A stretch of DNA of 64,000 bases from Henricia sp. BOLD:AAB3569. Lineage: Eukaryota; Echinodermata; Asteroidea; Spinulosida; Echinasteridae. Below, in pieces: positions 1,804-43,913 of this stretch. A model generated the notes under the pieces. That model was not told the origin of the DNA. It saw only the letters and a list, made by a program, of their open reading frames with translations, and ran no database searches. Where the stretch lies: positions 806,001 through 870,000 of the forward strand of contig JBBELK010000105.1 in the NCBI GenBank assembly GCA_037783545.1, written 5' to 3'. A program made the position numbers and the translations under genes. Numbering within the stretch: the stretch's first letter is position 1; every line of letters begins with the position of its first letter.

Positions 1804-3374
1804 CATTTAGTACCTGGGTGTGGTCTGAAGAGTGCCATGATTGGGTTGAAGAGGCCCAGAAATGTAGCGATGATTCCACACACTGCATGGGCCATGGCCA
1901 CCTTATTCTAGGAATAAGAAAAAGGAATATTTTATTTCATTGAGACTGTGGACTAGCGAACAAAGGATGTCCACACTTGGTGGGAGAAGTTAACATTATG
2001 TGGACTAGCACACGTCCACAGTCGGGTTGTCCAAGCTTGAAAAATAGGGTTATGGGGGCGGGTAGGTTAAGGGTTTAAATAGGGTATAGGTAACAGTTTA
2101 GGAGAGAACTGTTTTGATTTTGGTATAATTTTGTTTTTCATTTTGAAGTTTTCTTAACTACACGAGAATAAAGGAATGTCCACAGTTGGTATGGAATGTA
2201 CTGTGTGTGTATACAGCCATATTCCCAGGGCAGGTCTATATAGTTTACAGGAGGCCGCCCCTTCTTGGAGAACATTTGGCTCATGAAAACTGTGTACAAT
2301 CTATAACCATGTAAATAAGAGGCCACGGGGACTTTCCATAACATAATAGATACATTGCAACAATGAAGAACAAAGCATTGGGACCTAAAGTTTCGACTGT
2401 ATGTAACAAAAATTATTTTCTTCTGGTGAGGCATCTGAGTCCGCATGCAGCTTTGATCATAGCAGCTAGTCTTTTAAAAAAAAAAAAAAAAAAAAGCACA
2501 AAATTTGCTTTTTACAGACGATTATCAACTTACATTTGTATCAATAAAACCGTCAACGTAGACGAATATCAGTATAAAGCCGAGAATGAAGAAAACAGCA
2601 CAAGTCTGCATGCAAGTACGGTGAATCTGAAGAAATGGACACAATGTCAAATACAGATTCAACATATTAACAACAGAGAGTGGACTCAAAGTTTTACTTG
2701 GACATGCAAGTACTCGTACTCGTATGTTGAAGTACTCGGCACTCTGACAAAAATACTCGGGCCTAAATGATACTTGACTATCTCAGTACTCGACAGTACT
2801 TGGTACTCGGATAATAGTACTCAACAACAACAATGTAAAACTAAAAGAACTGTTTGAAAAAAAAGAGCAAAAAAAAGTAACATCAAAATACAGTTAAACC
2901 TCTCCTGCCTATTAAAACAGGTGAAACTGTCAATGCAATTACACCAGTAATATCAGTGTGCCTCATAGCTAGGCTGGTTGAGCATCTAACCGGCGAACGA
3001 GAGGGCTTGGGTTTGAATCCCACTGAGGACAGGGATAAAGGAAGTAAAAGAGGAGGCAGAGGGCGACGGGAAGGGTGTAAAGACTCAGGTTTACTCACCA
3101 CGAACAAGACTTTGTTGCCTAGTGGAGCATCTGCCCAGTGTGTGAGAGGGCGTGGGTTAAAATCCCAATGGGAACAAGGGACAAAGAAAGGAAAAGAGGG
3201 GGAGGGGAAGGGGAGGAGGAGGGGGCCGGAAGGGGTGTAAAAACTCAGGTTGACTCACCATGAACCAGACTTTCTGACCTGCAATTTTGGAGGAGGGCCA
3301 CATAGGTTTGAGGTACCGAGCCATGATAAGGCCTACGCTGGCAAAACCCATCCAGGCTATCACCATAAAAGAGG
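1804..3374 (-). CDS. Gene A cytochrome b561 core, helices 1-3
   Basis: Helix 1 exon 3259-3374 encodes SFMVIAWMGFASVGLIMARY then LKPMWPSSK and GQKVWFM. Helix 2 exon 2534-2626 opens IHRTCMQTCAVFFILGFILI. Helix 3 exon 1804-1907 contains KVAMAHAVCGIIATFLGLFN, PIMALFRPHPG, and ends in phase 2. The His residues of IHR (helix 2) and AHA (helix 3) sit where the heme-ligating His of the b561 family are expected. Gene B carries the equivalent exons with the same sizes (116, 93 and 104 nt) and phases. The helix 4 exon (in B containing FNWAHWGVGTTAH) was looked for in 1-1803 and not found, so the gene continues beyond the left edge. Confidence 0.9.
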
Positions 3375-6300
3375 CTATTACCAATAAAGAATGTGAATAA
3401 GATATAAACATTACCAGTCAACAACTGATTAAGTAAATATGATGGTTCAATTAATAATGGTTAATTCTTGTATAGCACATGTCTATTCTGCAGGATACTC
3501 ATGGCACTGTTGCCATTATTATCGCTGCCATCATTTCGCTTCAATTAGGTGGCTGCCTGGCCAAAACACACAACCTTATCAGCAGTTAGATTGTGGCATT
3601 TTCCCTACAGGGTACTCCTGGCACTGTTGCCATTACTATCGCTGCCATCAGGGAATCACCAGAACCATTTTGCTTCAACTATATAGGTGGCTGCCTGGCC
3701 AAGGCACACAACCTTATCAGCAGTTAGATTGTGGCATTCTCCCTACAGGATACTTCTGGTGCTGCTGCCATTATTACCGCTGCCATCATGGAATCACCAG
3801 AACCATTTCGCTTCAACTAGGTGGCTGTCTGGCCAACTTGCACACAACCTATTGTGGCATTTTAAAAGCTCCCCAAATAAGATTAACTGTCTTGCCCATG
3901 GACAAAGAAACCATGTTGCCACCAGTGAGATTAGAACCCACAACTTCTCGATAATGAGAAGAGCTGTGTACCCACTATAGACCAATGTAAGAAACGAACA
4001 TTTATGTTGCAATCTGACAAAGTGTAAAATAGAAATTAACAGAGTAGTATAATTAAAAAGATTCTTGTCCAGAAACTCTTAAAATAACAGTGAAAATGAA
4101 CTCACCATGGGTCTTTGCAAAAGCAACATTTCTAGCCGCTTGACTAATTATTGGTTTGAATTCCGTTAAGTCAACAGCGTCTGTAGTCAACCACTTGCTT
4201 ACATGACGATGGCCCTGAATGGTTCCTAAAGACCAGGAGGAAGCCATTAAATAGGATGTGAGAAGCCATTTTATGTTCAAACTATTAAGCAGCAAATTCA
4301 AATACCAATGCTGTTACTTATCCAGCGTGTTTCTACTGATTACGATTACTGTACAATTTCTGAAATGCTTCAAACGGTACCATTAATTATCCAGAGTTGT
4401 CAAATGGTTTTTAAAAATTACAACAATGTACTAAGTACAATGGCATAACAAGTTTTTGTTCCAGTGTTCACAATACATTTTTTGGGTTTTAAATTATGCA
4501 TCTTGTTTAGAGCTTAAAAAACTATGAATTGTAGGATAGGGCGACAAATCGTGTGTAAAAAAGGTATATTAGGGCGACCTGCTCAATAGGGCGACATTTT
4601 GGTGTCGCCCTAATATTTTTGAGTTTAAAATTAATTTTTTTAGGTCAAAAACCATTTTTTTTAGGTCGAGAACCATTTTTATAGGGACTGGAGCTGTTTC
4701 TCTTCGGTCTGCGACCATTTTTGGAAGCTTTGGGTAAAAAAATAAGGTGTCATTTTGAGTGACTCTTGCCGAAATTTCGGTGGTCTCCGGTGAGAGTCTT
4801 CCCGAAGTGTCGCCCCATTGCGGCATTCAGCGTTCTTTAAAGTACTGTTATAACTTTTTTTTAGATGTATGCCTATTGATTGTCAAAAGTGGTCAAAATT
4901 ATCTTTAAACGGTTTTGTTATATTAAAAAAGTATGTTAATACTTGCCATCAGCATTAACTTTGTCGCCAACTCCCAACAAGAGGTAGTAGCTATTTCCAC
5001 TGCTCAGGTTGTAAAACTTGTCATTATTCTCAATGCTCGATTGTCTAGTAAACGTGCAGGTTATCTCATTACCTTGAGTTTCTATTGATTCCGTCTCGAC
5101 GGCTCCCTGAAGACAAACGATATTTCAAACACATATCCTCAAAATGAGTTTTAACGCCCTGTATTGTACGGTAGCATCTTGATTGCAAGCACTTTGACAC
5201 TGTGTGCCAAACATGAGTAAAATCTGGTACTTATGAAGTGTATTCCATGTTTGTCAACATCTCAATGCGCTTTACAACTATTAGAAATCACCCAAACATC
5301 AAGATACATAGGTTGGTGGCAGTCCGTGCCACCTTCGACAGGCAAGCCTGAAACACTGGAGAAATCTCCTTCTCTTTACTAATTAATGCTCTGGGATTAC
5401 ATTTTAGGCCGTCCCGGTTTCGAGCGTATATTGGACATTTGTACATAGGCTTTTTAGAAAGGCATGTTGTCACACTATTTGTAACCCTTTTTGAGCCTAA
5501 GTTATCTCTAATTCAAAACAACTGAAACCTATTTCTTTTATTTTGAGACCAGACAAAGGTATTTTCTGGAAAATATAGTCTGTGTTGCCAAAATGCCCCC
5601 TTTACTGTGGAAATTTAAGACTCAGTTACAAAGAATCAGAGAAGAACATGTAGTATTTGGAGCACGTGTGGTTTAGTGGGTATACAGCCGTGCTCGTGAT
5701 CGAAGGTTTATGGGTTCAAGCCCCACTTGTGCCAACGTGTTTGTGTCCGTGGGCAAGACAATTAATCTCAATTGTCACAATCTAACTGCTGATAGGGTTG
5801 TGCGCCTTGTCCAGGTAGCCACCTAGTTGAAGTGAAATGGTTCTGGTGATTTCCTGATGGCAGCGGTAATAATGGCAACAGTGCCATGAGCACCCCCAAA
5901 GGGTGAACATGTGCGCTATATAAGTATCCACCATTATTACTATTATGTACTTACATCAGGGAGTGTCCTGGTGAGTGAATCGCGACCTTCGTTTTCCGAC
6001 CATAAGACCTTATCGCTTCCAGATGTGCATGCATATACGTCAGCAGGGGACTGAATCACAAGAAAAAAAGACCTTATCTCAAACAGTTATTGCAATATGT
6101 TTCATAAATAACAATTGGTATGGGATACCATGGCCAAGCGGTGTAGCATGTTGAATCCAAGACTATGGTAAATCCACAGGTCGTGGGTTCGAATCCCATA
6201 CCGGCTTGACCATGGTGCTTGTGCTCTTAGGCAATTAGGCACTTTGCCATGAATTGCCTCGCTCCACCCATGAGGAAATAGGTACCTGCGAGGGTAGAGA

Positions 6301-9300
6301 AAGCTAATGTGTTTGATTAGTCCCTGTGCGCATAAGCAGCACGGGACTGTATACTCCCCAGCAGCCAATTTCACGAAACTTTACGCAATTGCGCAAGTCC
6401 ACTTACGCCATTACTTGCGCAATAATTTATGGCGTAAGTGAACTTGCGCAATTGCGTAAAGTTTCGTGAAATTGGCTTCAGGGAGCTGAGAAGGATTAAA
6501 AGGAATGATATTACTGAGCCCAATGACCACGGGTAATAATGCCAAAAGTGCATTGAGAGATCCAGCGGATCTGTAATGTGCTATAAAAGAACTGTCTATT
6601 ATTATTATTATTATTATTTTTATTAGACCATATCAAATAGCTGCTATATCTTGTAGGGCAGTTTCATTGTTTGTTGAACACATGCAGAATTGTACATCTA
6701 AGTATCAAAAGTAACAACATGAGATGACAGCTATTTGATATGGTCTATTATACAAATAATGAATGTTTTAATTTGTGCAATGGGAGGAATATTTTCATGA
6801 GGTGAAAGATGGAATGTTCCATCCATTGAGGCGAAGAAGAGTTGAATAGAACACAATTACATCTTTCACCGAAAGATTTAGGCATACAAAGAGTCAAAAT
6901 GTCATATTACAATTAAACGATCAAAGGATGTCGATCATGAAAATATCAACTGTTGGACAAATGATCTTATACTTTACTCATTCGCTTTGCAATACTAGTA
7001 CATAAGAGTGTCATCTTTTTAAAATCTTTGCCATTTTACACACAGAAATCACCAAAAATATAACTTTAATGAAATCCTAATTTGCTCTTACCATTCCTGA
7101 ACTGGAGCCCAGTCCCACGGCAACCCAGGCAATTCCCCCTGACCTTTGACCTTTTAGGGTAAACCTGATACGCCCATTCTCAAGCTTCTGATACGTCACG
7201 TGCGACGTGCAGTCGCCTCCACAACGCGCTTCTGGTCGGAAACAGCCAATGGTCTTTCCACATTCCGATAACTGCAAATAGATGACTTTGCCATCAATAC
7301 CCAAGAATTGTCACGTAATACCTGGTAGCATGTTCATTTTTTTTAATCAGAAATTAAAGCACACCGGGCTTTTACCCAAAAAAACATCTTGGTGCGAGAG
7401 TAAATTTGTAGCATTGTTCCTCACAATGAACAGCTTGTAACATTAACTACACACATTTCCTTTGCATTGATTTTTCTATTTATATAACGCAACATCTGGT
7501 ATGGTCCATAATCACCATTGAAATGAAACAACAAAACATGGGATGAGATAAAAAAATCCTGGGGGGTGCACGTGCCCGCCCACCCCCCCCCCCCCCCCCC
7601 CCCCCACACTTTGCAATAAAATTGACTTAGCCACTGGTTTAAGACCGGTCGTTTATAGCCGCCTATCCAACTTAGCCAGTCTTGGCTTAGTCACTGGTTT
7701 AGCCCATTGGAATAAACCAGTCTAACTGAAGTACGGCTGCGCCAGCAGAAAAACACCCACACCTTAACGGAAAGTGATGCAGCCGACTATACTTGCGTGA
7801 TTTCAAGCCAAACAAACGTCCTCACAAAGCCACTTGATGATGCTTGTGTGGTGCAGTTTTTGCAGAGAAACTGACCGCGAAAGTTATCAAATAGCACTAA
7901 AAATGCTCGAATGGGCACAATGTGCATTTTGTTCGTCTGTTTTCATGCAAAATTACAAGATGTAGCGCGGTGTCCAAAAATTATAGCCTGCTCGCCACGG
8001 GCTTAAATTTTAAGACTGGTCTAACTTTAAGACAACGATATTGCAAGCGGGCTATAATTATAGACCAGTCTTAGTGGATGCCGCGTTAGCCAGCTAAGCC
8101 TATAGACCGGTCTTAGACCGCATATTGCAATCCACCCCTGGAGTAAAGTTTAGAAACATGGATTAGGAAAAAATTGGGGTGGATGAGGGAAGAATTTGGA
8201 GAAAACAATGATTTTCCGACCAATTCTCTTAAGTGCACGAATACAAAGAAACGTCCACAGTGCGTACGTAATGTACACATGTGTGCCCCCACAGAAAAAT
8301 CCTGATGCATGTTTTTTTTGTATTGCCCTGTAACTTACTGCATGATGTCTGCCGAGGGTGGTATATATGCCCTGACTATGCATGCATGTATGCACGTGGT
8401 GGAACGGGAATTAAGAGGACACCCATCTCATGTTTTCTCTCATCCTGTGTTTGGTTGACTTTATCAAGAAAATTTGGGCTTCTTCAAAGCCGAGCTCAAA
8501 CTTACGCCAGAGTCTGGAGTTGCTGGGACCGTTATAACAGAAAAATCCATTAAGTCAACAGCGTCTGTATTCAACCACCTGCTTACATGATAATGGCCCT
8601 GAATGGTTCCTAAAAACAGGAAGAAAATGTTAAATATGATGTTAGAAGCCATTATAGGGCAATTCCTGAAATTCAGATTTACATATTTCAGAAACTTGAG
8701 GGCTTGTCATGCTTCACGTATTCAAGTTGTTTGTTCTAGTTATAGCTTGGGTGAGCAGGCTTTAGGGCTACAGTGTTTAGGTTCACTTTTGCTTACCCTG
8801 GCCGGCTTATGTCCTAGTTCACTCCTGTCTATTTTTCTCTGCATTATTCAGTATTACATCGTAATTTGCGCTTTCTCTGTAACTTTTGTTTATTGTTCAC
8901 TGCATGTAATTTGTGTGTGCTTGTTTTTTTGTATGTATTGGCCGAATAAATAATAATAATAATAATAATAATATTAAACACATGTTCTTCAAGCATCCTT
9001 GATGGAAGTGTAATTCCTGAAAAATTGATTGTAATGCCATTCTCAATAAGCGAGGTACGTTAAAAAAAACCTCGGTTTCGAACGTACTCAATGAGTACGT
9101 CTAAAAGCGAGGGTTTTTTGGACTAGTATTTTGCTTGTTGAGAATGGGATCACAAAAGGATTTTCAGGAATTACACTTCCATCAAGGATGCTTAAAGAAC
9201 ATGTGTTTAATATCAAACAACTTGAATATGTGAAGCATTACAAGCCCTCAAAGTCTATGAAATGCAAATCTGAATTTATGGAATTGCCCTAAATAGGATG

Positions 9301-12300
9301 ATTACCGTACCATTTCTGAAATGCTTCAAATGGTACCATTATCAAGAGTTGTCTAATGCTTTTTAAAAATTACAACAATGTACAATGGCATAACTATATA
9401 AAGCTGTTCAAAAAAACAAAGTTTTTTCCAGTGCGCACAATACATTTTTTTTAAAATTCTGCATCCTGTTTAGAGATTAAAGTTTTTTTTTTTTTTTAGA
9501 TATATTGACTGTCAAATTTGCTCATACGTCAAAGTGGTCGGAAATTATCTTCTAAATTTTTATTTTAAAAGTCTATTAATACTTGCCATCAGCATTAACT
9601 TTGTCGCCAACTGCCAACAAGAGGTAGTAACTATTTCCACTGCTCAGGTTGTAAAACTTGTCATTATTCTCAATGCTCGATTGTCTAGTAAACGTGCACG
9701 TTATCTCATTATCTTGAGTATCTATTGAGTTTGTCTCGACGGCTCCCTGAAGAGAAAAGGTATTTCAAACAAATCATCCTCAAAATGAGTTTTAATGCCC
9801 TGTCTTGTACGGTAGCCATCTTGATTGCAAGCACTTTGACACTGTGTGCCAAACATGAGTAAAAGCTGGTTCTTATAAAGTGTATTCCATGTCTGTCAAC
9901 ATCTCAATGCGCTTTACAACTATTAGAAATCACCCGAACATCAAGATACATAGGTAACTACCTACGGCAGTCCGTGGTACCTTCGTCAGTCAAGCCTGAA
10001 ACACTGGAGAAATCTTCTTCTCTTTACAAATTATTGCTCTGGGATTACATTTTTGGCCGTCCCGGTTACGAGCGTATATTGAAAATTTGTACACAGGGTT
10101 TTTAGAAAGGCATATTATCACACTATTTGTAACCCTTTTTGAGCCTAAGTTATCTCTTCAAAACAACTAAAACTTATTTCTTTCATTTTGAGACCATGCA
10201 GACTAAGATATTTTCAGGAAAATATAGTCTGTGTTGCCAAAATTTTCCCCTTTACTGTGGAAAGACTCGGTTACAAAGAAACTTAACGTTGTAGAATCAG
10301 AAAAAAGAAAACGTAGTATGTACTTACATCAGGGAGTGTACTGGTGACTGAATCGCGACCTTCATTTTCCGACCATACGACCTTATCGCTTTTAGATGTG
10401 CATGCATATACGTCAGCAGGGGACTAAATTACAAGAAATTGCAATAACAAAAAAAGACAGTATCTCAAACAGTTATTGCAATATGTTCCATAAATAACAA
10501 CAGATGTATAGACCATATCAAATAGCTGCCATCTTGTAGGGCAGTTTCATTGTTCCTTGAGGACATACAGAATTGTACATCTAAGTATCAAAAGTAACCA
10601 CATGAGATGGCAGCTATTTGATATGGTCTATTATACAAATAATGAATGTTTTAATTCGTGCAATGGGAGGAATATTTTCATGAGGTGAAAGATGGAATGT
10701 TCCATCCAACGAGGCGAAGAAGAGTTGAATAGAAAATTTAGGCATACAAAGAGTCAAAATGTCATATTACAATTAAACGATCAAAGGATGTCGATCATGA
10801 CAATATCAACTGTTGGACAAATGATCTTACACTTTACTCATAAGAGTGACTGCATAAAAAAGTGTCATCTTTTAAAAATCTTTGCCATTTTACACACAGA
10901 AATCACCAAAAATATAACTTTAATGAAATCCTAATTTGCTCTTACCATTCCTGAACTGGACCCCAGTCCCACGGCAACCCAGGCAATTCCCCCTGAACTT
11001 TGACCTTTTAGGGTAAACCTGATACGCCCATTCTGAAGCTTCTGATACGTCACGTACGACGTGCAGTCGCCTCCACAACGCGCTTCTGGTCGGAAACAGC
11101 CAATGGTCTTTCCACATTCCGATAACTGCAAATAGATGACTTTGCTATCAATACCCAAGAATTGTCACGTAATACCTGGTCGCATGTTTATTTTTTTTAA
11201 TCAGAAAAGCACACTTTTCCCCAAAACAATCTTGGTGCGAGTTTGTAGCATTGTTCCTCACTATGAAAAGCTTTAAACATTTCCTTTGCATCGATTCTTC
11301 TATTTATAAAATGCAACATCTGGTATGGTTCCTAATCACCATTGAAATCAAACAACAAAACATGGGATGAGAGAAAAAGAATCATACGGTCCTCTTCAGA
11401 ATTTGAACCCGAAACCTCCGACTCACCAGGCAGATGCTCCACTACCTGAGATACAGTATATATGACACAGTAATGGGGTATACACCTTTGTGTTTTTCTT
11501 GTGAACCACATTTTCTCTCAGTGATACATGAGTGTGCTACTGAACAAAATAATAAAGCAATACCAAGAGGAAAAACTGAGGGAGTATACTACTGTGCCTC
11601 ATAGCTCAGCTGGTAGAACATCTGCCCAGTGGGTCAGAGGTCTCGGGTTCGATCGAATCCCAATGAGGCCTTTCTAATGTGTTCCCTCATCCTGTATTTA
11701 TCAAGAACGTTTTGGCTTCTTCAAAGCCGAGCTTAAACTTACGCCAGAGTCTGGAGTTGAGTCACTAACAGTTGGGACTTGAGTCACTAATGGCGGCGGT
11801 TCCGTGGCAACAGGAAAATCCTGTTGTAATTGATAGGATTCAGATGATGACCAAGCACCTATATGTCCAGAACCCTCAATCCTTCCTGATAACAAAAAAA
11901 ATCAAGACAACGGAGATTTTGACAGGTGCAGCTCCCAAACCAAGTATCTTGTCTAGGTGGAAGACAAGTGCAAATCAGCTAGCGGGCCGTGAAATGAAGT
12001 TCAATAAATGTATTACGATGTGCAGCACACATGAACATATAGTCAAATGAAATATGCATCATAGAAATGTAATGGCTAATAATTAATAATGCATTTGAAT
12101 AATCAGTCAATGCTTACCCCAGTTGACGACACTACCGCCAACTGCCAACAAGACGTAATATGTGCTGGCCCCACTGATGTCATAGAACTTGTCGTAGCCC
12201 GTAGCATTTGGTTGTCTGAGAAACGTACATGTGACCATTTTGTCATCCGAGCAGAACGATTCGAGCATGATTGCATCCTGTATCAGAACAGATGGTAGCA

Positions 12301-18116: not shown

Positions 18117-18250
18117 TAAAGGCACAGGCTCGTAAGCAATGCGCGTGCGACGATATTTATACGCAGCTCCATAGCAAAGACATGGAGCTGCGTATTTCGT
18201 GGCACGCATTTGGCGCACGCGCATTGCTGATGATGAGCCTGTGCCGTTAA
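18117..18250. mobile_element. Foldback element with GCACAGGCTCG termini, copy 1
   Basis: TTAAAGGCACAGGCTCG pairs with GAGCCTGTGCCGTTAA, and inner ATACGCAGCTCCAT pairs with ATGGAGCTGCGTAT. A second copy of the palindromic core is at 18679-18790. Confidence 0.75.
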
Positions 18251-19279: not shown

Positions 19280-20226
19280 TTATTATGACTATTGCAATCA
19301 GACTCAAAAGCAATCACAACGAAAATGATTAAAATAATACAACTTTATAAAATCGTGAAAAAGATGCGACATGATTCCTTTAGTCCAAGATATTCTGTTA
19401 AAAAAATTGACACTATAAGGGTGACCAAAATGGTGCGTGTAAAAGGCATCGATGTCATGGTTTACAACTACAACCACCGACGTCTCTTAATTAATCGCAA
19501 TGAAAATGACAAAAACAACAACAAAGGCCAAAACGCACAAGATGTAGATGGAAAGAAGAACCGACTTGGCTGTTGCACCCTGCACGAAACAACAAAATCA
19601 CACAGATTGATGAGAACATTGGTAAAAAAACCCTGTAATAACCAGAACGAAATACAGTGGAACTTGTCTATAGTGGCCACCCTCGGGACCGTAAAAAACT
19701 GGCCTCTATAAACAGGTGGCCTCTTTATAGAGGTTGCTTAAGCATTATACAAATGGCAGTTGGGACCAAAGAAAGGTGGCCAGTATAAGCAGGTGGCCTG
19801 TTTATCAAGGTGGCCTTAATAGCAGGTTTCACTGTAATCAGACACAAAGTGTGAAAAATGAGGTGTGTCCTCATTGAAAATCAAACCTCTGACACACAAG
19901 TAATTTTAAAGATGCTGTATAACCCTTAACAAACCGTAAAGTCTGTGGACAAGTGGTCCCAGAGGGCAGGCTGAAACATTTTAGAGAGGACAAACCAACA
20001 ATACAAACTGAGATTTTCACGTTGAGTCTGTGGGCTCAAATTGAGAAAGGCCAATGACTGCCTTCTGACTTGTCATCAAATTCTTGTCGTGAAATAATCA
20101 GATCGGGTTCCTGAACTAGGGTGTGACTTTGCTCCACAATGACATAACTTCCAACTGACAATAATTTAACACACTATTATCTATATTTATACATATTGCA
20201 TAGTTTACAGATATTTTATGAGTTAT

Positions 20227-20605
20227 ATTCACCAGACTAGGATTGGATGAACAGGCTTCCGAGCCACAGTGATCTCCACTTTTGTTAATCATATAGCCAT
20301 CTCAGTTTGGATTGTCTTTGACCCATCCCGCAACACACCCCACTCCCCTCACCACCCTCTCCCTCCCCTAATCCCCTCAAACGCCCCCGCCATACCTCCG
20401 TGCCAGCGTGCCAGCCAGCCAGCCAACCCCCCCCCCCCCCCCCCCCCCCCCCGACCCCAACCCTCATAATGCTACTTTAATTTATACAGTTTGCTTTGAC
20501 CTTTTTGTATTTATTCCATTGTTTTGTATTCCCTTGACTGTAAGTTTGTTTTGATTGTCTTGTTTTGGCTTAATAAATAATAATAATAATAATAATAATA
20601 GTGAT
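20227..20605 (+). mobile_element. Possible 3' fragment of a non-LTR retrotransposon
   Basis: An AT-rich 3' end reading TGGCTTAATAAATAATAATA with an (AAT)n tail, preceded by a segment that partly resembles 8735-8975 (GAACAGGCTT..CACTTTTG). A shared tail with truncated 5' ends fits LINE insertion. No reverse transcriptase remains, so the class is unproven. Confidence 0.45.
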
Positions 20606-20627
20606 ATTGAAGAAATAAAGACTATTT

Positions 20628-35100: not shown

Positions 35101-37484
35101 GTTTACGCATCCCTATTGGCTGAGAGCACGTCACATGGGCAGTCTTAAACTAGCGATAGTGACCAGTGATAATGCCCGGCCGGCTGGCTCGTGTTTGTGC
35201 CCTAGTCAGCGTGTATACGGATTATGCACATGCACACAGAAACTGCACTCGCCTGAAAGCAAACTGTGCACTTATATCCGGTCGTGTGCGTGCGCGCACA
35301 ACACGCCTACATTACGCGTAACATGCGCGATCGAACAAAAACAACATGATGCACAGCTAGCAGTTGTACGAACGCGGTGTTGATACTGTGGGTGTAAGAA
35401 AGTGAATGTAAAACATGGCAAATAGAGCTAATTTTGGCGAGTTTTACCAATTTACACGAAAAGGAATGTATGAACGGTGGCGGCTCGGGCATTATCAGTG
35501 CCCAGGACCCCTAGCTGGTTTTAAACGTATGTTTAAAATTGGCCAAACCTACTTTTAATCCCTTAAAATCTTAAATGTCTCCCAAGAGAATTTAAAGAGA
35601 AAGACTTCAGCCCTAGAACGGCAACAAATTTAAAGTAAAAACCTTTGAAGTAACAAGGACATCTCTTGCGTGACATTTTGTTACTATTTGACTGTTAACA
35701 ATCTCAACTGTCAACTGCAGAAATAAACATTGCTTAAGTTAGTGACACAACAATACCCGTTTCTAAGTACGCAGCGACCGTGAAAAAGCAGGACTCGTAT
35801 CCTATAATAAGCATACTTCTTTCACTATTAAATGCTTATGCTGCTCTAAAATTGGGCTCAGATGAGTCACTTTGTTCTTCAATAACAATGATGAATAACC
35901 TACATCTATTTCATTTCTATTTGAACTTATCCTTTCTGCTACAAGGTTTTTCCAGAGGAACCCAATTTTACTCTCAGTGCTGTATGGGAGCACAACTTAG
36001 CATGGTTTCTAATCAAGATAAAACCCAAATAATTTTTCTCTCATCCCAAGTTGGTTGTTTCATTTCATTTTCTGCTAAAAGGAACTTATTGCTACTTGCC
36101 AGCAGGAGTATTGACATTGTCGCCAATTGCCAACAACAGGAAATATTTATTGCCGCTTGTGATGTCGTAGAATTTGTCATCAGCTCCTGCAACGGTTGCT
36201 TGTCTAGTGAACGTGCAGGTTATCATGCCATTCATAACTTCTATCGAATCCAATGTGACAGCTCCCTGCAATGGAAAAGAACAAAAACATGGTTTGTAAT
36301 TAAAGGAAAATGTTGAGATAAGGGGCCATCCAAAGTCGCCAACGTTTTCTACAGAGCACATTTTTCAAGACCCTCCTCCCCCGCACGAAAATCCACTTAT
36401 CAACATTTTTGTGGTCAACATTTTACATTGCATGTAAAGTCGTATGAGGCCCTTGACACACCCCCCCCCCCCCCCCCCCCCCCCCCCCACCTCCACCTCC
36501 TCTTCCTACGCTTCGTAGAACCGTGAACATGTTGACAACTTTGGACGGCCCCATACTGATGTCAAAAAGGTAATTACTGCATTGATGGACAAGTGCATTT
36601 ATCTTATTTCATGTATATACAATAACCCACTGCATATTGAAACCTACTATTCCGCACCAGCAAGCTCAGTGGTTGAGTGGTTAAGATACCCGACTAGTAT
36701 GCAGGAGGTCGTAGGTTTGAGTCCCACCAAAGTACACTACGAGTTTTTAGTATGATTGCAGAAAGATCACTTAGTTTATAAGTAAATAAATGCCTCCGTT
36801 CAGTGGTCGTAAACATTCGTCAAATAGATTATTGGCAAACTGTTATATCCCACAAAAAAACGTTTTACTTAAATTGGAATTTGCCACTGACTGCAGTGCT
36901 TAGTTGTAATACAAACTGGCAGTATGGGCAAATTACATCCACATAATACTGATGTACTTACTGAGGGTATCGTCCTGGTTTCAGAATTCAAACCACTAGC
37001 TGCAACATTTTCTGATCGTTCAACCTGTGCGCTCCCGCTGGTACATGCATATACATCTGCTGGAGTCTAAATAATAAAGGATTAAAGTGTGCTAATTTCT
37101 GTAATTTTAAACAATGCCAAAACCCTTTACACATATACTGGTATCCCATTCAAAAGCTGAATACTATTTCTCTATTTTATCCAATGGGTCGACACTTTTT
37201 GCATAGATAGCCTTATTAGGATGACGCGCCCTATTAGGTCGACAATTTGGTGTAGGCCCAATATTTTGGAAGTCACAATCAATTTTGTTTAGGTCAAAAT
37301 CCATCTTTTTCAAATCGAGAACCATTTTTATTAGGTCTAGAACCATCTCTCTTTAGGTCTGGAACCATATTCGGAACCTTTGGGTAACAGAAATTTGGTG
37401 TCCAATCGATGTCTTTTAGCCGAAATTTCGGTGGTAGTTTGGTAAAGTCTTTCCGGCGTGTCGTCCCTTTGCGGCATTAAGTGA

Positions 37485-37521
<37 letters not shown>

Positions 37522-40500
37522 TCATTCTGGTATTCATACCAAGGATTCCTCTAAAGTGCCCATTGCACTGTCACTCGCAAGCGTGAGGAAACCATGAGGA
37601 ATTAGAAATGGCCAGAGACACCAGGGAATTCCCTTGCTATTGATTGTTTTCCGGTGGTGTCACGCCTTCCATCCACCATTTTTAATGTCATTTTTCATGA
37701 CCCACGTGGCTCGAGCGATAACCGGCACAAGCATCCACAATAAATATACACTTTTCACTGGCAGCCATGTTAGGTGAAGGTTTTGATATTTGAATGCTTT
37801 CACGATAGATCCACAAAGTGCCTACTCTTACATGATGCACTTTTCCTTAAGATGGCCGTCCATGCAAAGTGTCTATTGTGTGGATTGTGGATCTTCACCA
37901 CTCTACAGTTAGCACTCCAATTCTAACATTAAATCCATTCACAGCAGCAAAAGAAATGTAAAAATTTGTCTACTTTTTAATATAAAAAAGCAGTCAGTCT
38001 AAAGCGGGCCTCCCACTGTGCGATTTTCGCCACGAATTTCCTATGATTGGGTACGATTGTGTGAAGAGTCTATAGACAGTCTCTGTTAATCGTACCAATT
38101 CGTAGGAAATTCGTGGCGAAAATCGCACAGTGGGAGGCCCGCTTAAGAGTGGAAATTTTCAGCACACTGACATTTAATGCAGTAATGCACAATTAAGCTG
38201 TTAATAGAATATTTCGATGTCAGCTTAATTACAAAAGAAATTTTCAAATTTTGCTTAAACTGTGAATTTGCAATTCTTTTACCACTCGGTGTATAAAAGA
38301 GAAATTCCTACCATTCCCGAGGATATACTAGATGGACGCAGTCCCACGGCGACCCAGGCAATTCCTGCTGACCTTTGACCACTTAGAGTAAACTTGACCC
38401 GCCCATCATCCTGCATCGCATACATGACAGATGCCTTGCAGTCGTCACCTCCGCAGCCTGCGTCAGGCGTGAAACAGCCAACAGTTTGACCACATCCATC
38501 CAACTAGAAAAATGTGTAGCGGATGAAGAACAAAATTCAAATGTTTCACAATAGAGAATGTTCATTGCTAATGCGCCAATCAATTGTTCCCCCCACCCCT
38601 CCCCCCCCCCCCCCCCACCCCTCGGGCTACCCCACCTAAGAGGTGGGTATTGTCACTTTTTGCGTGACAAAATCCCCACCCCATGGGCAACATTTAGGTG
38701 ACAAAAATCCCCACCCTCGGGTGCAAAACATGCACAAAAATGCACAGAAAATGGGCCAAATGCCCCACCCTGGGGCATGAAAAATGTGACCAAACCCCCA
38801 CCTAGGGGGTGGGGCAGCGCGGGGGGAGGGGAGGGGTGGGGGAAACAATTGATAGGTGCGGTTCGGTTACCATGGAGAAGTCCCGCTGTAATTGCATTGC
38901 CTTACTTGATGGCCAACGTGCGTTGTGTTGATTTCCTGCAATAGTTCCTGTATTAATGACAAAATGTTATTGCAAAGTTTATATTGTCAAGCAAAACGTG
39001 TAAACACATAGTACCGCTAGTAGATCCTTTATTTTCTTTAAGCCGCCTTTCCTTAGGTCTGTTTTTCATCCATCTTGCGTGTGTTGTGTTTGCGCTGCGC
39101 TCGTCTGTCTGTATTGGTCTATGGAACGCTTCGGTCTATGGAGCGATTCAGACGCAAACGGATGAAAAACGCAAGACAGATGAAAAACAGACCTAAGGAA
39201 AGGTGGCTATACAATTCATGCAATAACGACGCTGGAGTCTTATATAGTGCACATATCCACCATGCAAGGTGCTTATGGCACTGATAACATTGATTATCAT
39301 CCCTGGTCGTTGGGCTCAATTACATCATTCCTCAGCTCCCTTGGGAGGATACAGCCTTGGCTGATGGTTAAAGGCAGTACACATGATTGGTATCTCGAAG
39401 AATCAGAAATGTGCACAGATTTACACATAACTTACACGATATAAACATGACGACGGTAGAAAACGTCGCCTGAAATGGTTTTGTCTGAAGTGCTATAGCC
39501 TTTGAGAAATGAGCAAAACAATTATTTTTCGTCTCACGAGACATAAATTAAATTCGCCCCAAAACCATTTTGCCCTGGACTACTTCGTCCTGAACCACTT
39601 CGCCCAAGTGCCATTTCGCCCCAAAACCACTTCGTCGATTTGTGACGATTGCGCGTGATAGGTTTGAACACAAAACGCGCTACACGCACACGCGTTCCAA
39701 ACCGTCTGAAACCGGTTACGGTGATGTGCCATTCAAAAAGCCGTTTTCCTTCTGATTCTAAAACTGAGAAAATATTTCTTCTCTGTTGGCCCATGAGCTA
39801 AAATCCCACAGGCGCTTTTCAGTAATTGTTTCAATAGGGCTTGGGAATCGACGTCACGACGCCATTATTGACGTCATTCTCGGCCGCCATACTTCAAGGT
39901 AGTGAGTGGTTGCTATGCTAACTGGCATGCAGCATCGTCAAGTTGCGTACGGCGCCCGCACGATTCCATATCACGCAAACAACGACCTAGTCATTGAATT
40001 CCACATTCCTGCATGCGTCAATACAAAAGAAGCTGAACGTACATCGCGCACGTTACTGACACATAACATGGCGGAAACCACTGCATTGTGATGTTGCATG
40101 ACATCACATTCCCAAGCCCTTTAGACAGGCGAAGTGTGACGTGCATTGCCATGGCAATTGGCTCTAAACATCATGGCTGTTGAAAAAAGTACCATTGCAA
40201 AAGCACAGGGACACGGTTCAGTGATTTTTAGTTTAGAGCCAATGCATAGTTCCGACCTGTCAATCAAGCCGAACCCGCGACCAATCACAACAGAGCTAGC
40301 AGACGGCGCCCACAAAGGTCAAAGTGATGCAATCATCACAAACAATCCGCGATGTTCTGCCCATACAGTTTGTATGTTGTATGCGCCATTGACCGGGTGA
40401 ATTTTGGTTTCAATGTCGGGCGATTCGCTGTTCAAAGGTAGGAAAGCGCATTTTTATGAAAGATATGTCATCCCTGCATTACTAGCCCTTCGCTCAGTGT

Positions 40501-43500
40501 GTGCTACGGTAACTGTCGACCTCAAAACATAAATACCGTTGGGTTTTCTCCAATGAATCTGTGCTTTCCATGCCGAGTCCCGTTGCTTTGTACGTAGTCT
40601 CGCCATTTTTTTGCGATGGCTTGTGAGCACATAGCAACAATATCCAAGGGGGCGGGGTTAGCTGGGAAATCTCGGAACTATGCATTGCCTAGGCAACCAG
40701 CAAAAGATGACGTATTCACTTCAGCAGTCTATACCAGAAAAAAATTAATAATGTAGAAACGTACCATCAACATTAATGTTGTCGCCAACAGCCAATAAAA
40801 TGTAGTAGGCATTGTCTCCGCTGATGTTGTAGAATTTATCGTCCCCCTCCAAGCTAGGTTCTCTTGTGAAAATGCAGTTGATGACGCCATTGACATTGGT
40901 ATTAGATTCAGTTGTTACGGTGTTCTGTACAAGAAAACATGCAGCACAAGGTGTAAATACAGCAACAACACTTTTTGGGATTCTAATTCTCTTCCCAAAA
41001 ATAACCAAACTTGGGATGAGAGAAAAAACCTGAGACCTCTGACTCACCGGGCAGATGCTCTACCACCTGAGCTACATGTATAAGGCACAGTTGGTACTTG
41101 ATATTCCCTCAGGTTTTCCCTATGGACCCAATTTTTCTCTCAATGTTGCATGGTAGTGCAACTGGACAAAGTAACGAATGCAACATCTGGTATGGTGCCT
41201 GATCACCATTGTAATGAAACAACCAAACTTGGGATGAGAGAAAAATCGTAAGGGCCTTATCAGGACTCGAACCCGAGACCTCTGACTCACTAGGCAGATG
41301 CTCTACCAGCTGAGTTGGTACTTGATATTTCCTCATGTTTTCCCTATGGACCCAATTTTTCTCTCAATGTTGCATGGTGGCGCAACTGGGCAAAGTAACG
41401 AATGCAACATCTGGTATGGTGCCTGATCACCATTGAAATGAAATAACCAAACTTGGGATGAGAGAAAAATTCCTCAAAATAAGTTTAAAGTATTTTTTAA
41501 CAAATTTTCTATTTCAGAGATGTATTCATTAAAGGCAATTAGATAGAAATGCGGCCAAATGTCCATGATGCAGTGAAATTTTGATGCAGTGAAAAACAAC
41601 TTTGCTCCACCAGGATTCGAACTGTAGACCTTCTGTTTAATGTGCAGATGCCCCACTAATTGAGCATTGAAGTCAACTAACCTACATTCATAATACTTAC
41701 CATTGGTATTGTTCTGCTCTCCGAGTTAAGTCCTACATTTTCTGACCTTTGAACTCCGGAACTTGTACATGCATAAACATCAGCTGGCGCCTGGTTGGTA
41801 ATAAAGAATAATGTAAATGTAAGAACTCTGGATGCCGCAAATAGGGCGACATTTCGGGAAGACTCTCCCCGGGGACCACCAAAATTTCGGCAAGAGTCAC
41901 TCAAAATGACACCTTATTTTTTTTACCCAAAGCTTCCAAAAATGGTTCCAGACCAAAGAGAAATAGCTCTAGTCCTAATAAAAATGGTTTTTGACCTTAA
42001 AGAAAATGGTTTTTGACCCAAAAAAAAGATTTTTAAAAATGTCGCCCTATTGAGCATGTCGCCCTAATATAGCTTTTTTACACACAAATTGTCGCCCTAT
42101 CCTAGCATTCATAATTTTTGGCATCACGATAAAATATGGGCTTAAGTCCCGCCAAAAAGCAAGCTATGAAGTTTGGAAAAGGCAAACAAACTTCTAAAAT
42201 TAACAACCATTTAAAAATGGAAATGTTTTTATCAATTTTTCTAATAATCATGGCAATTGAAGGTATATATATATGACAGGATTGATAATTGAAAGATGAA
42301 TTTAGAAACATGCGAAAATTGCAGTGCCCCGACTGGGATTCGAACCCACGTTCTTGGCTTACATGGCCAATTGCTCTACCAACTGAGCTATCTGGGCATT
42401 CCGCCGGAGCACCACAAAAATCTCATGTTCGCCTCTCTTTTTCCCCCAATGCAGTGGGGCAAATCCATGCCAACACGGGATTGTTGTGGTGCTCCGGTGG
42501 GATTCCCAGATAGCTCAGTTGGTAGAGCAATTGGCCATGTAAGCCATGGACCTGGGTTCGAATCCCAGTCGGGGCACTGCAATTTTCTCATACTTCACAA
42601 ATCTCGTGTTCGCCTCTCTTTTTCCCCCAATGCAGTGGGGCAAATCCATGCCAACCAACTGGCTATTAAAAGAGAGGCAAACACGGGATTGTTGTGGTGC
42701 TCCGGTGGGATTCCAAGATAGCTCAGTTGGTAGAGCAATTGGCCATGTAAGCCATGGACCTGGGTTCGAATCCCAGTCAGGGCACTGTAATTTTCTCATG
42801 TTTCTAAATTTATCTTTCAATCATGGTAATGCACGCAATGTCCTGAACTTTATTGGGGGGGCAGTTAGGGGTTAAAACTACATACCATTCCACTGGTTTG
42901 AGTTGACGGTCGGAGTCCGACAGCCACCCATGCCAGGCCAGCTGCTCTCTCGGCCTTCATGGAGAATTTAGTGCGTCCACTAGCAGTTGTCTCCCAAGTT
43001 ACAAATGCTGTGCATGGTTCGCCGCTTGTACATGATTTGATTAAACATCCCTTGGTAACGTCACACCCCTCAACCTGGAACAAAGATAATCATGTGACGT
43101 TAATTTGTCTTTATTTTATTTTTTATTTTATTATTTTGGCACAGTCGCCACGGGTCGTGGAAAAGGCAATTATGCCCAAATTAAAATCCACTGCCCCGTA
43201 TATAAATAAAACAAGACTGAATAAAATTATACATGTACTTAAAACAACATCAGAACGATAAACAGTAAAATATAATCTAACATAAAACGTAGCAGTGACA
43301 AGTCACATACACAAACAACAGACAAAGAAAACTAAGTACAGATAAATAAGAGATTAAAACTAAAAATCCAGGGCACACACAGATAAGACTGGTTATGGAG
43401 AACGGTTAAAAACAAAGTTAACAACTATAGGTTTGAGGAAAAAAGGAATATTTAGGTTCAGAATTCATGATGTTCATTGCAATCGGAATGAATGAAGTAG

Positions 43501-43913
43501 TTTATTATGGCTTTAGAGCTTGGGTACAAAACAAATAAGACAGGCTGAAAAATAGTGTTTCCTCACAAAATGTTCTCACTCCTAAATTTGTGTTTTTCCA
43601 TCAAATCTGCACTTACCACTAATGCTTGACGAGTCATTTTAGAGAAAACAAACTCTTTAATACCTTTCTCAGTTATAGATATGTGTGAAGGGAGACACAA
43701 AGCACCTACTCATGCCAGACGTGTGGGAAGAAAGCACCTGTCTCCTAAGATGGCCGCCGTGCAAAGATCCTATTATCATTTACTAAGATGTCTAAAACTG
43801 TTCATGCATGATACTTACATCCTGGCCTGACGTCACTTGAAGTAACAACACTAATGCAACGAGAATGAGGACCAATCTTGCAACCATTGTACACGTAGTC
43901 TTCAGAAATTCAC
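20628..43913 (-). CDS. Gene B: complete tetra-DOMON cytochrome b561 (FRRS1-like), 1020 aa
   Basis: Twenty-five coding exons in transcript order: 43887-43819, 43074-42886, 41790-41701, 40924-40765, 38947-38871, 38503-38312, 37066-36962, 36265-36100, 35023-34908, 34491-34303, 33790-33686, 33001-32836, 31759-31644, 31227-31036, 30048-29947, 29648-29483, 28986-28870, 27507-27392, 26014-25922, 25451-25348, 24918-24860, 24159-24013, 23131-23087, 20837-20752, 20723-20628. They sum to 3063 nt and stay in frame to a TGA at 20630-20628. Residues 1-23 are a signal peptide, 24-195, 196-388, 389-580 and 581-772 are DOMON modules, about 773-946 the b561 core, and the rest a Pro-rich tail. A possible AATAAA lies about 110 bp past the stop. 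By homology it is a heme membrane redox protein; substrate and partner are unknown. The least certain junction is the module 1 linker donor at 38870. Confidence 0.9.
20985..21230. repeat. Imperfect inverted repeat around AAAAAGGTGAATCAGACCCG
   Basis: AAAAAGGTGAATCAGACCCG is mirrored by the TCTGATCCGCCTTTTTCAAT side, with GTGTAAACG / CGTTTACAC further out. It lies in the gene B intron upstream of its penultimate exon. Confidence 0.5.
21270..21525 (+). repeat. Dispersed repeat, longer copy of the 1-165 element
   Basis: TCTATAAATTTGGGGTCCA at the left is mirrored by TGGACCCCAAATTTATAGA at the right, so this is a TIR element of about 250 bp. The central AAATGCCTTCTATTTCAAAG matches the window start in reverse. 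Confidence 0.7.
21951..23010. repeat. Minisatellite built on TCAAGTCAAGTC, inside a gene B intron
   Basis: The main array from 22258 alternates two units: type 1, TTGAGGCCGGAGTCTCAAGT then CAAGTCA, and type 2, TTGAGGTTTGAGTCTCAAGT then CAAGTCGAGTCA. The order of types is irregular (1-2, 1-1-2, 1-2). A degenerate prelude begins near 21951. It occupies the intron between exons 23087-23131 and 20752-20837. Confidence 0.9.
24013..27507 (-). CDS. Gene B cytochrome b561 core (five exons)
   Basis: Helix 1 27392-27507 (SLMLIAWLGFASIGITMARY, FKPMWPSSK). Helix 2 25922-26014 (IHRICMMSCVSCFIAAFVLI). Helix 3 25348-25451 (TTLAHAICGIIVTALGIINP, IMAIFRPHPG). Helix 4 24860-24918 (RPIFNWAHWGVGTTAHLLA). Helix 5-6 24013-24159 (ATILLGLNYNAPLLGLPKSL then FFIMIGFVAFHAVAWIIFQV). 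Junction phases 1-0-0-2-1-1 are consistent throughout. His residues in IHR, AHA, WAHW and AFHA are in the right helices to be the two heme-ligand pairs of the b561 family. Read-through past the GTAGGG donor of the last exon would give 29 more residues to a stop at 23927; I prefer splicing because two further in-phase exons exist. Confidence 0.9.
24300..24700. repeat. Dispersed repeat with TTGATTGCTTTCCGGTGA
   Basis: Shares TTGATTGCTTTCCGGTGATG, CACGTGGCTCGAGTGATAAC and GCTAAAAATCGC with 49860-50190 and in part with 37640-37745 and 30430-30460. It lies in the gene B helix 4 to helix 5 intron and contains no coding signal. Confidence 0.65.
26206..26440 (+). mobile_element. tRNA-Leu-like SINE with (AAAT)n tail
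   Basis: GTTATGGCCGAGCGGTC and GTAGGTTCGATTCCTGGCC form a tRNA-like head, then CCCCGAGCAAGGCACTTAAC, then an (AAAT)n tail at 26380-26440. It lies in the helix 1-helix 2 intron of gene B. Confidence 0.75.
26711..27128. mobile_element. 418-bp TIR element with CCAATGCATAGTTCCGA ends, copy 1
   Basis: The left GCAATGCATAGTTCCGAG pairs with the right TCGGAACTATGCATTGG. The same element in opposite orientation is at 40238-40689. Both lie in gene B introns. Confidence 0.8.
28030..28320 (+). pseudogene. Remnant resembling the C-terminus of a non-LTR retrotransposon polyprotein
   Basis: The plus frame reads LSPLSVRRTINDSLFLYKHF and later ALRSQN and SYGMTGS. This pattern resembles the tail following reverse transcriptase in many LINE ORF2 proteins. 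It starts without a natural start codon and there is no polymerase domain next to it. It is embedded in the module 4 linker-helix 1 intron of gene B. The assignment is by motif resemblance only. Confidence 0.4.
28870..31227 (-). CDS. Gene B DOMON module 4 (four exons, joined to b561)
   Basis: D1 31036-31227 (LDGCGQTVGCFMPDAGCGGD ... SSTASGM), D2 29947-30048 (PADVYACTSREQVERSENV), D3 29483-29648 (GAVTLDSIEAMNGM ... DNVNTPAG) with a GC donor at 29477-29482, linker 28870-28986 (TIQGNQHKNRWAAQESVDL ... NIALAKAH). The linker ends at phase 1 and, as in gene A module 4, carries the ALAKAH lead into b561 helix 1. Only membrane-proximal linkers have this ending; linkers of modules 1-3 end in Pro-rich hinges instead. 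Confidence 0.9.
29060..29340. repeat. Dispersed repeat with TGATAATGCCCGGCCGGCTG
   Basis: Shared with 31800-32290, 35065-35555 and 49040-49325. The 3' half holds GCGCGCAACACGCCTACGTT, giving a stretch of alternating purine-pyrimidine. The copies in gene B modules 2 and 3 came with the module duplication. Confidence 0.65.
30150..30350 (-). repeat. GGGCGAC-type repeat, copy 2
   Basis: Contains AGGTCTAGAACTGTCTC, TTTGGAAGCTTTGGGTAAAA and GCCGAAATTTTGGTGGTCCC, aligned with the copy at 4500-4835. Lies in the D1-D2 intron of gene B module 4. Confidence 0.6.
30725..30870. repeat. Hairpin-forming repeat, gene B module 4 copy
   Basis: The arms TAAAGCGGGTCTCCCACTGT and GCGATTTTCGCCACGAATTT pair with GCGAAAATCGCACAGTGGGA and GGCCCGCTTA. 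Equivalent copies sit at 33990-34135 and 38000-38145. Confidence 0.85.
31533..31566. repeat. (TAGTG)n microsatellite
   Basis: Seven perfect TAGTG pentamers, repeated identically at 34797-34830 in the duplicated module. Confidence 0.9.
31644..34491 (-). CDS. Gene B DOMON module 3 (four exons, near-identical to module 2)
   Basis: D1 34303-34491 (LDGCGQTVGCFTPDAECGGD, one codon shorter than in modules 2 and 4), D2 33686-33790, D3 32836-33001 with a GC donor at 32830-32835, linker 31644-31759. The coding D2, D3 and linker repeat module 2 at an offset of about 3264-3276 bp. All junctions keep phases 0, 0, 1 and 0. Such close copies could also be an assembly artefact, but the D1 exon, poly-C tract and a 270-bp deletion difference argue for two real copies. 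Confidence 0.88.
33990..34135. repeat. Hairpin-forming repeat, gene B module 3 copy
   Basis: Same arms as 30725-30870; loop centre TCTATAGACAGTCTCTGTTA. Confidence 0.85.
34908..38503 (-). CDS. Gene B DOMON module 2 (four exons, near-identical to module 3)
   Basis: D1 38312-38503 (LDGCGQTVGCFTPDAGCGGD ... SSISSGM), D2 36962-37066 (PADVYACTSGSAQVERSENV), D3 36100-36265 (GAVTLDSIEVMNGM ... DKFYDITSGNKYFLLLAIGD), linker 34908-35023 (TIEGNRHTNRWAAQESVDL ending GTQMPAQG). D3 ends in a GC donor (GCAAGT, 36094-36099). D2, D3 and linker are essentially identical to those of module 3, as are the introns, which marks a recent in-frame duplication. Confidence 0.9.
37170..37480 (-). repeat. GGGCGAC-type repeat, copy 3, with adjacent (TTA)n
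   Basis: Aligns with copies 1, 2 and 4 (AAATTTCGGTGGTAG, AGGTCTAGAACCATCTC). It is followed by (TTA)n at 37485-37520. Confidence 0.6.
38000..38145. repeat. Hairpin-forming repeat, gene B module 2 copy
   Basis: Same arms as 30725-30870. Confidence 0.85.
38579..38853. mobile_element. Poly-C MITE with ATCAATTGTTTCCCCC termini
   Basis: The left end ATCAATTGTTCCCCCCACCC is mirrored by GGGTGGGGGAAACAATTGAT. The body contains CCCCACCTAAGAGGTGG and GTCACTTTTTGCGTGACAAA. A partial copy with the same body is at 59512-59740. It abuts the module 1 linker exon of gene B. Confidence 0.85.
38871..43074 (-). CDS. Gene B DOMON module 1 (four exons)
   Basis: D1 42886-43074 starts VEGCDVTKGCL and ends STQTSGM. 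D2 41701-41790 contains PADVYACTSSG and is the shortest D2 (30 codons). D3 40765-40924 starts NTVTTESNTNVNG, contains DKFYNISGDNAYYILLAVGD, and has a normal GTACGT donor. Linker 38871-38947 encodes TIAGNQHNARW and ends RDFSM. The GTAACC donor after RDFSM keeps phase 0, but past it the same frame reads VTEPHL, which resembles the Pro-rich hinge of A module 2 (VATEPPPL), and then runs into a MITE at 38853. The hinge therefore seems to have been cut short by that insertion. Introns here carry SINEs, a gggcgac-type repeat and a tRNA-like inverted cluster. Confidence 0.82.
39041..39208. mobile_element. Foldback element with CATCCATCTTGCG arms, copy 2
   Basis: The left AGCCGCCTTTCCTTAGGTCT pairs with AGACCTAAGGAAAGGTGGCT. 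It shares its body with 19122-19279. Confidence 0.75.
39835..40122. mobile_element. TIR element with GGGCTTGGGAAT ends
   Basis: AGGGCTTGGGAATCGACGTC at the left is mirrored by ACATTCCCAAGCCCT at the right, with GACGTCA motifs inside. Immediately followed by another element (40125-40245) whose parts recur inverted at 46220-46350. Confidence 0.65.
40238..40689. mobile_element. TIR element with CCAATGCATAGTTCCGA ends, copy 2
   Basis: Opposite orientation to 26711-27128, with the same body (CAATCAAGCCGAACCCGCGA, GCCATTGACCGGGTGAATTT). Confidence 0.8.
40950..41470 (-). mobile_element. Cluster of tRNA-derived SINE copies
   Basis: Three copies of the ACCAAACTTGGGATGAGAGA unit flank two tRNA-like segments (GACTCACCGGGCAGATGCTC and CGAACCCGAGACCTCTGACT), in the D3-D2 intron of gene B module 1. 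Confidence 0.7.
41826..42110 (+). repeat. GGGCGAC-type repeat, copy 4
   Basis: The most intact copy: GCCGCAAATAGGGCGACATT at one end and TGTCGCCCTATCCTAGCATT at the other, with TACCCAAAGCTTCCAAAAAT in the body. Confidence 0.65.
42325..42397 (-). tRNA. tRNA-Thr(TGT)-like sequence, copy 1, probably not functional
   Basis: Read on the minus strand it has GCTC..GAGC as D stem, TTGGC/GCCAA anticodon stem, loop CATGTAA (TGT), and a TTCGAAT T loop. The T stem GTGGG/CCCAG and acceptor GCCCAGA/TCGGGGC each have a mismatch, and one extra A lies before the anticodon stem. It is more likely a tRNA-derived repeat than a gene. Confidence 0.4.
42504..42576 (+). tRNA. tRNA-Thr(TGT)-like sequence, copy 2, probably not functional
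   Basis: The T arm CTGGG-TTCGAAT-CCCAG is perfect, and the D arm and loop CATGTAA are intact, but the acceptor TCCCAGA/TCGGGGC has two mismatches and the anticodon stem has one. Confidence 0.4.
42712..42784 (+). tRNA. tRNA-Thr(TGT)-like sequence, copy 3, probably not functional
   Basis: Like copy 2 with more acceptor damage (TCCAAGA/TCAGGGC). Confidence 0.35.
43819..43913 (-). CDS. Gene B first coding exon: signal peptide
   Basis: The ATG at 43887-43885 begins MVARLVLILVALVLLLQVTS and ends GQD before a GTAAGT donor in phase 0. A TTCAG acceptor precedes 26 nt of 5' leader. The strongly hydrophobic 15-residue core followed by Val-Thr-Ser-Gly is a classic cleavable signal. The exon matches gene A's first exon in position, phase and C-terminal GQD. 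Confidence 0.88.

Follow-up and report, generated by a model that had tools for sequence, protein, structure and literature searches.

Predicted genes at the Henricia locus

A 64,000-nucleotide stretch of the sea star Henricia sp. BOLD:AAB3569 (GenBank assembly GCA_037783545.1, contig JBBELK010000105.1, positions 806,001 to 870,000 of the forward strand; hereafter called the window) was analyzed. The window holds two neighboring genes, A and B, each predicted to encode a protein with four DOMON modules ahead of one cytochrome b561 core, and these proteins are putative electron donors of the CYBDOM family. Genes B and then A follow in succession on the minus strand, and gene B is oriented head to head with a third gene, C (Table 1, in positions of the window). 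An earlier note, made from the sequence alone, had described A and B and had missed both gene C and the recent copying of B modules 2 to 4. Its central claim, that both A and B join four DOMON modules in frame to a signal exon on one side and to a single b561 core on the other, was borne out by the gene models and by the Pfam DOMON search.

Gene B was modeled from the ATG at 43887 to a stop at 19487 as 24 coding exons in one open frame, in the order of a hydrophobic signal-peptide exon, 16 module exons (four DOMON modules) and 7 b561/tail exons. The model is complete, as the earlier note had said, but it gives 1004 amino acids rather than the 1020 residues reported there. The weakest junction of gene B is the B1d donor (GTAACC), which was picked over one other in-frame candidate. 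An intron of its tail holds a minisatellite (22272-23006) with units of 61 or 89 bases. Three tRNA-like matches, two of which ARAGORN named tRNA-Thr, sit in repeats within intron B1a-B1b (42324-42784); these look like tRNA-derived mobile repeats. Gene A runs from the ATG at 16733 to 1046, giving 905 amino acids within the window, and its 3′ part lies beyond the left edge. It has the same order of a hydrophobic signal exon and 16 module exons (four DOMON modules), followed by 4 b561 exons in the window. The fourth of these (1104-1046) had been omitted from the earlier description, which started the gene A b561 part at 1804.

Each module of A and B consists of four exons (a to d) with phases 0-0-1-0, so that an entire module can be gained or lost in frame; in both genes, exon d of the last module enters b561 in phase 1. 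Internal acceptors of the two genes are AG at every exon, and donors are GT except for GC (GCAAGT) at five of the eight exon-c ends, namely B2c, B3c, B4c, A3c and A4c. The GC donors of A and of B (36100, 32836, 29483, 9587 and 4947, minus strand) thus share this exon end. Signal peptides were called from first-exon hydropathy alone. By this measure a signal-like ATG exon precedes module 1 in both A and B, and none was found in the six introns immediately upstream of internal modules; because the background of signal-like exons is 10 per 50 kb, this placement lends modest support to the models.

Domain assignment and putative heme ligands

The Pfam DOMON model matched four stretches in each protein, with E values of 2.4e-41 for gene B (an earlier 973-aa version) and 1.8e-42 for gene A. 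When modules were scored singly against the Pfam curated cut-off, seven of the eight passed, and A2 scored 29.4 against 32.7. The earlier note had proposed a Pfam search for both domains. The b561 model fell just under its cut-off in gene B (22.5 bits against 23) and was not listed for gene A. For the sea-star relatives P0001 (Patiria miniata), P0002 (Acanthaster planci), P0003 (Asterias rubens) and P0006 (A. amurensis), the b561 scores were 20.6 to 24.3. Because the Pfam b561 match is weak, the b561 assignment rests on homology, the gene B core being 69% identical to a Patiria protein, and on four histidines (His), found in gene B at 772, 813, 849 and 885 and in four motifs in gene A. Pfam rows for DUF1815 and Rad9_Rad53_bind were dropped, since neither had a passing stretch.

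In insect and plant CYBDOMs, the heme b ligands of the DOMON are a methionine (Met) and a His (PMC10691727, PMC10784544, PMC10784552). Both residues stand at the corresponding positions of every one of the eight A and B modules and of the gene C module. An alignment of these nine modules has 152 ungapped columns, of which 35 are invariant, the ligand Met and His included. When 139 DOMONs of relatives were added to the nine of the window, Met was present in 145 of the 148 and His in all 148, the His test being a loose one in which any His in the tail stretch counts; of the three DOMONs in which the Met was not found, two belong to entries truncated at the N-terminus. The modules of A and B are thus probably heme-binding, and with all sites filled each protein would hold six hemes. 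The electron carrier that the earlier note had proposed therefore stands at the sequence level (Met and His in 8 of 8 modules), while its "wire" is conjecture, as the linkers look flexible. Sugar binding, which it had named as another possibility, is less supported, since the Met/His pair is reported not to be conserved in sugar-binding DOMONs (PMC10691727).

Both A and B thus combine at least one DOMON and a b561 core with four core His and the DOMON Met and His, all features of a CYBDOM. Further features of the family are a signal peptide, predicted here from the first exon, with the DOMON on the outside, and ascorbate-dependent electron transfer or metal reduction. The FRRS1-type family suggested earlier was supported, and so was the guess of a deuterostome. 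Pfam listed no Reeler domain, the mark of FRRS1/SDR2 proper, in A or B, and Reeler (PF02014) was listed for none of the 16 relatives bearing echinoderm names. By sequence, A and B belong to the CYBDOM (FRRS1/SDR2-like) proteins but have no Reeler domain. The domain DM13, which Knickkopf-like proteins carry, was likewise not listed by Pfam in A or B, and the earlier comparison with Knickkopf lost ground accordingly.

Sequence searches of solved structures with one module, a module profile and P0002 returned nothing usable; the sole row of the single-module search, CIDE-A at E 0.19, was dropped as chance. Fold comparison alone tied the modules to heme-binding DOMONs. In one run just two chains had E < 0.001, both of them dopamine beta-hydroxylase. 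The comparison gave no separate row for the b561 part and is uninformative on it either way.

Relatives with several DOMON modules

Relatives were collected in three protein searches, with 10, 55 and 66 matches. Together these make 111 distinct entries, among which are isoforms (P0003 to P0005); about 8000 best-sharing candidates were scored in the first and third searches. DOMONs were counted with a profile built from the window modules and the relatives, and Pfam agreed for the eight entries checked. One DOMON was counted in 94 relatives, two in 9, three in 7, six in 1 and four in none. By source name, the 8 relatives with at least three DOMONs come from the sea stars Patiria, Acanthaster and two Asterias and from the brittle star Amphiura filiformis. 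The nine two-DOMON relatives include, going by source names, proteins of the crinoid Antedon, of Amphiura, of molluscs, of a tunicate and of a beetle. The earlier note knew of no description of the four-DOMON arrangement. No four-DOMON protein occurs among the 111 relatives; three- and six-DOMON relatives, which answer the point in part, are already in databases.

The closest of these are the sea-star proteins P0001, P0002, P0003 and P0006, which are annotated as uncharacterized or as putative ferric-chelate reductase 1. Like A and B, they have their modules before one b561 core, ligands in each module and no Reeler domain listed; they differ in having three modules, whereas A and B have four. 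Identity to gene B is 47 to 50% over 77 to 79% of its length, and 64 to 69% in the b561 core. The Amphiura filiformis proteins P0007 (six DOMONs) and P0008 (three) are also multi-DOMON echinoderm proteins with one b561 core, but they are only 34 to 36% identical to gene B. Their modules cluster apart from those of the sea stars and the window, so that the brittle-star and sea-star/window arrays look separately amplified. With six DOMONs ahead of the b561 core in 1459 amino acids, P0007 has the longest array found.

Probable duplication of modules within genes A and B

Module trees were built from chosen rows, comprising 17 proteins in the first tree and 12 proteins plus gene C in the second. 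In both, the window modules grouped with those of sea stars, in a clade of 19 rows (99/99) and one of 20 rows (100/99), respectively. By this placement the source would most likely be a sea star distant from Patiria, Acanthaster and Asterias. Modules A3, A4 and B2 to B4 formed a starred clade of their own (99/96 in both trees); within it A3 stands next to A4 and B2 to B4 are grouped, indicating that the copying of this module took place in A and in B independently. Support for a clade that unites the eight modules of A and B was moderate (90/83 and 91/86). Module A2 was the most diverged, with a best identity of 46% and a long branch. In the b561 tree, for which 25 of 27 chosen proteins were used (two Diadema rows without a core match were left out), support for A and B as sisters was weak (62/84).

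In gene B, the source of the extra module is visible as two abutting units of 3.27 kb with 98.3% identity, whose breakpoint falls in the exon a-b intron (Table 1). On this sequence evidence, a tandem copy gave rise to B modules 2 and 3, and gene B would otherwise have three modules like its sea-star relatives. The exons of the two units differ at 11 of 576 sites and the introns at 27 of 2685 (1.0%). All exon differences are in exon a and none in b, c or d, and the excess in exon a may reflect gene conversion. The 11 differing sites are those between exon a of B4 (31036-31227) and of B3 (34303-34491), on the minus strand. Copies in gene A, compared in blocks that covered exons a and c, are clearly older: their introns differ by 6.8 and 9.5%, exon a at 4 of 180 sites and exon c at 8 of 160. 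The four modules of gene A are therefore free of any doubt about assembly duplicates. Of the 16 A-to-B module pairs, 12 had unsaturated dS. Their ratio of nonsynonymous to synonymous divergence (dN/dS) was 0.25 to 0.35, rough values given that dS exceeded 1 throughout; for the newest copies it was 0.73 (A3/A4), 0.86 (B2/B4), 0.68 (B3/B4) and 0.37 (B2/B3).

Gene C and other features of the locus

Gene C starts at 60504 on the plus strand and consists of a signal exon and one DOMON module, followed directly by the first b561 exon. Its module has the same four-exon layout as those of A and B, and by sequence gene C is their single-DOMON sister. Among sea-star proteins, P0059 and P0060 likewise have one DOMON each with the ligands kept. 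Gene C has the exon layout of A and B and lies in their cluster. With gene C constrained to a clade with P0059 and P0060, the approximately unbiased topology test gave p-AU 0.354, so that gene C may or may not be an ortholog of these two.

A 5.4-kb satellite array with a strong skew between strands (51396-56783) lies between genes B and C; its units are 12 and 9 bases long (CAGTTTCCACAG, CCACAGTTC). About 700 bases at 58129-58821 match their own reverse complement at 90% identity.

Table 1. Coordinates of the predicted features in the window.
Feature	Position	Strand	Exons and remarks
Gene B signal-peptide exon	43819..43887	-	ATG at 43887; gene model, hydropathy
Gene B DOMON module 1	38871..43074	-	43074-42886, 41790-41701, 40924-40765, 38947-38871
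Gene B DOMON module 2	34908..38503	-	38503-38312, 37066-36962, 36265-36100, 35023-34908
Gene B DOMON module 3	31644..34491	-	34491-34303, 33790-33686, 33001-32836, 31759-31644
Gene B DOMON module 4	28870..31227	-	31227-31036, 30048-29947, 29648-29483, 28986-28870
Gene B b561 core	24013..27507	-	27507-27392, 26014-25922, 25451-25348, 24918-24860, 24159-24013
Gene B tail	19487..20837	-	20837-20752, 19579-19487; C-terminal hydrophobic segment and stop
Gene B abutting units	30584-33847 and 33849-37123	.	3.27 kb each, 98.3% identical; source of extra module
Gene A signal-peptide exon	16650..16733	-	ATG at 16733; gene model, hydropathy
Gene A DOMON module 1	14258..16325	-	16325-16146, 15238-15143, 14735-14567, 14376-14258
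Gene A DOMON module 2	11743..13332	-	13332-13147, 12524-12414, 12277-12118, 11885-11743; most diverged
Gene A DOMON module 3	8506..11125	-	11125-10946, 10423-10328, 9746-9587, 8609-8506
Gene A DOMON module 4	4106..7271	-	7271-7092, 6050-5955, 5106-4947, 4225-4106
Gene A b561 exons in window	1046..3374	-	3374-3259, 2626-2534, 1907-1804, 1104-1046; runs off left edge
Gene C	60504..63868	+	60504-60644, 60759-60947, 61281-61391, 62038-62197, 62721-62837, first b561 exon 63753-63868; runs off right edge

Proposed function and alternatives

CYBDOMs are thought to link cytosolic ascorbate with outside acceptors via three hemes; what part the DOMON plays in this is described as unsettled (PMC10691727, PMC10784544). 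The authors of work on the plant CYBDOM CRR suggested that the DOMON lets electrons get to acceptors farther from the membrane (PMC10784552). For A and B the most probable role is the one of their family, with electrons from ascorbate crossing the plasma membrane. We consider it moderately likely that A and B are ascorbate-driven transmembrane electron donors with an extended heme array that grew by in-frame cassette duplication. The modules would face the outside of the cell; the b561 core would draw electrons from cytosolic ascorbate via two b hemes and hand them to the heme of the membrane-proximal DOMON. From there, the outer DOMON hemes (at most four per protein) may carry electrons farther out or hold several at once, and the electrons might end at ferric or cupric chelates or at a redox partner. 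The array itself would have grown separately in A and B by in-frame duplication of the symmetrical four-exon cassettes.

Several observations weigh against this proposal. Between the His of one module and the module that follows lie linkers of 19 to 41 residues, some of them Pro/Thr-rich, which speak against a rigid wire and for a flexible chain. In fold comparison, P0002 module 2 had no heme-DOMON row of its own, and the predicted fold, with a template modeling score (pTM) of 0.50, leaves domain packing open. Even the plant CYBDOM HYP1 allowed no test of whether its DOMON heme is required, as mutants of the ligands were mislocalised (PMC10784544). The newest copies appear to be under weak constraint by dN/dS, and the extra module of gene B may be a duplicate made in assembly or else a polymorphism.

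These points bear on other explanations as well. The outer DOMONs might instead form a multivalent binding or adhesion array in which any heme would be structural and at most the membrane-proximal module would pass electrons. Flexible linkers fit such an array, as does the state of the outer module A2, both the most diverged and singly below the Pfam cut-off; DOMON proteins are also reported among coral settlement/adhesion-related genes (PMC3204972) and Hydra basal disc genes (PMC5080974). However, Met and His are among the invariant columns even in A2, and Pfam listed no lectin or other adhesion domain in A or B, and we regard a binding array as unlikely. It is similarly improbable that module number varies at the RNA level, with cassette skipping yielding a family of one- to four-module proteins. 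The phase 0-0 of entire modules and the GC donors at B2c, B3c, B4c, A3c and A4c would favor this, but the sea-star isoforms P0003, P0004 and P0005 differ in the C-terminal tail and not in module number. That the modules are separate single-DOMON genes, and the four-module chains a modeling error, which the earlier note had named as its own refutation, seems highly improbable: each gene has one signal exon, one b561 core and unbroken joining phases, the introns directly before internal modules hold no signal-like exon, and among the relatives, chains of three or six modules are each annotated as one protein.

More weight, though still on the doubtful side, is given to gene B being truly a three-module gene, whose fourth module is either a haplotype copy that the assembler left next to its counterpart or a polymorphism in copy number. 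The two units abut and are nearly identical, the sea-star relatives found carry three modules, and intron differences of the level seen between the units can occur between haplotypes of marine invertebrates. A plain haplotype pair would not, however, be expected to show 11 differences in exon a and none in exons b, c and d with introns at 1.0%. Moreover, the four modules of gene A come from clearly older copies, so the four-module layout is independent of gene B.

Proceeding from the extended electron donor, a broader view is that echinoderms have repeatedly lengthened a surface electron conduit by DOMON cassettes (two, three, four or six), that module number sets reach or electron count, and that this would amount to a b-type poly-heme extracellular array in animals; we offer it tentatively and think it rather unlikely as a whole. 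The one-module sister C beside the four-module A and B, with ligands kept throughout, forms a natural set for asking whether extra DOMONs serve reach, electron storage or partner binding.

Comparison with known CYBDOM systems

Among the literature matches listed, which take in a minority of subscription journals, titles and abstract openings indicated no CYBDOM member with at least three DOMONs. Iyer 2007 and Aravind 2001, which reportedly deal with DOMONs, may describe multi-DOMON proteins. In a study of insect CYBDOMs, 19 of 888 matches had two DOMONs; its motif analysis includes Acanthaster planci, and the phrases "three DOMON" and "more than two DOMON" are absent from its main text (PMC10691727).

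The plant CYBDOMs HYP1 and CRR, likened here by description, have a DOMON with Met/His and b561 as in A and B, and a signal peptide as predicted for A and B, but one DOMON each; ascorbate-dependent ferric reduction was reported for both (PMC10784544; PMC10784552). Vertebrate FRRS1/SDR2 and fly CG8399 share with A and B the CYBDOM build, the DOMON Met/His and the b561 core, and ferric reductase activity was reported for mouse SDR2 and for CG8399 (PMC10691727). These animal proteins have a Reeler domain and one DOMON, whereas A and B have no Reeler match and four DOMONs. Taken together, the four-DOMON layout is, as judged by sequence, an extended variant of CYBDOM proteins, whose three- and six-DOMON relatives already stand in databases under automatic names.
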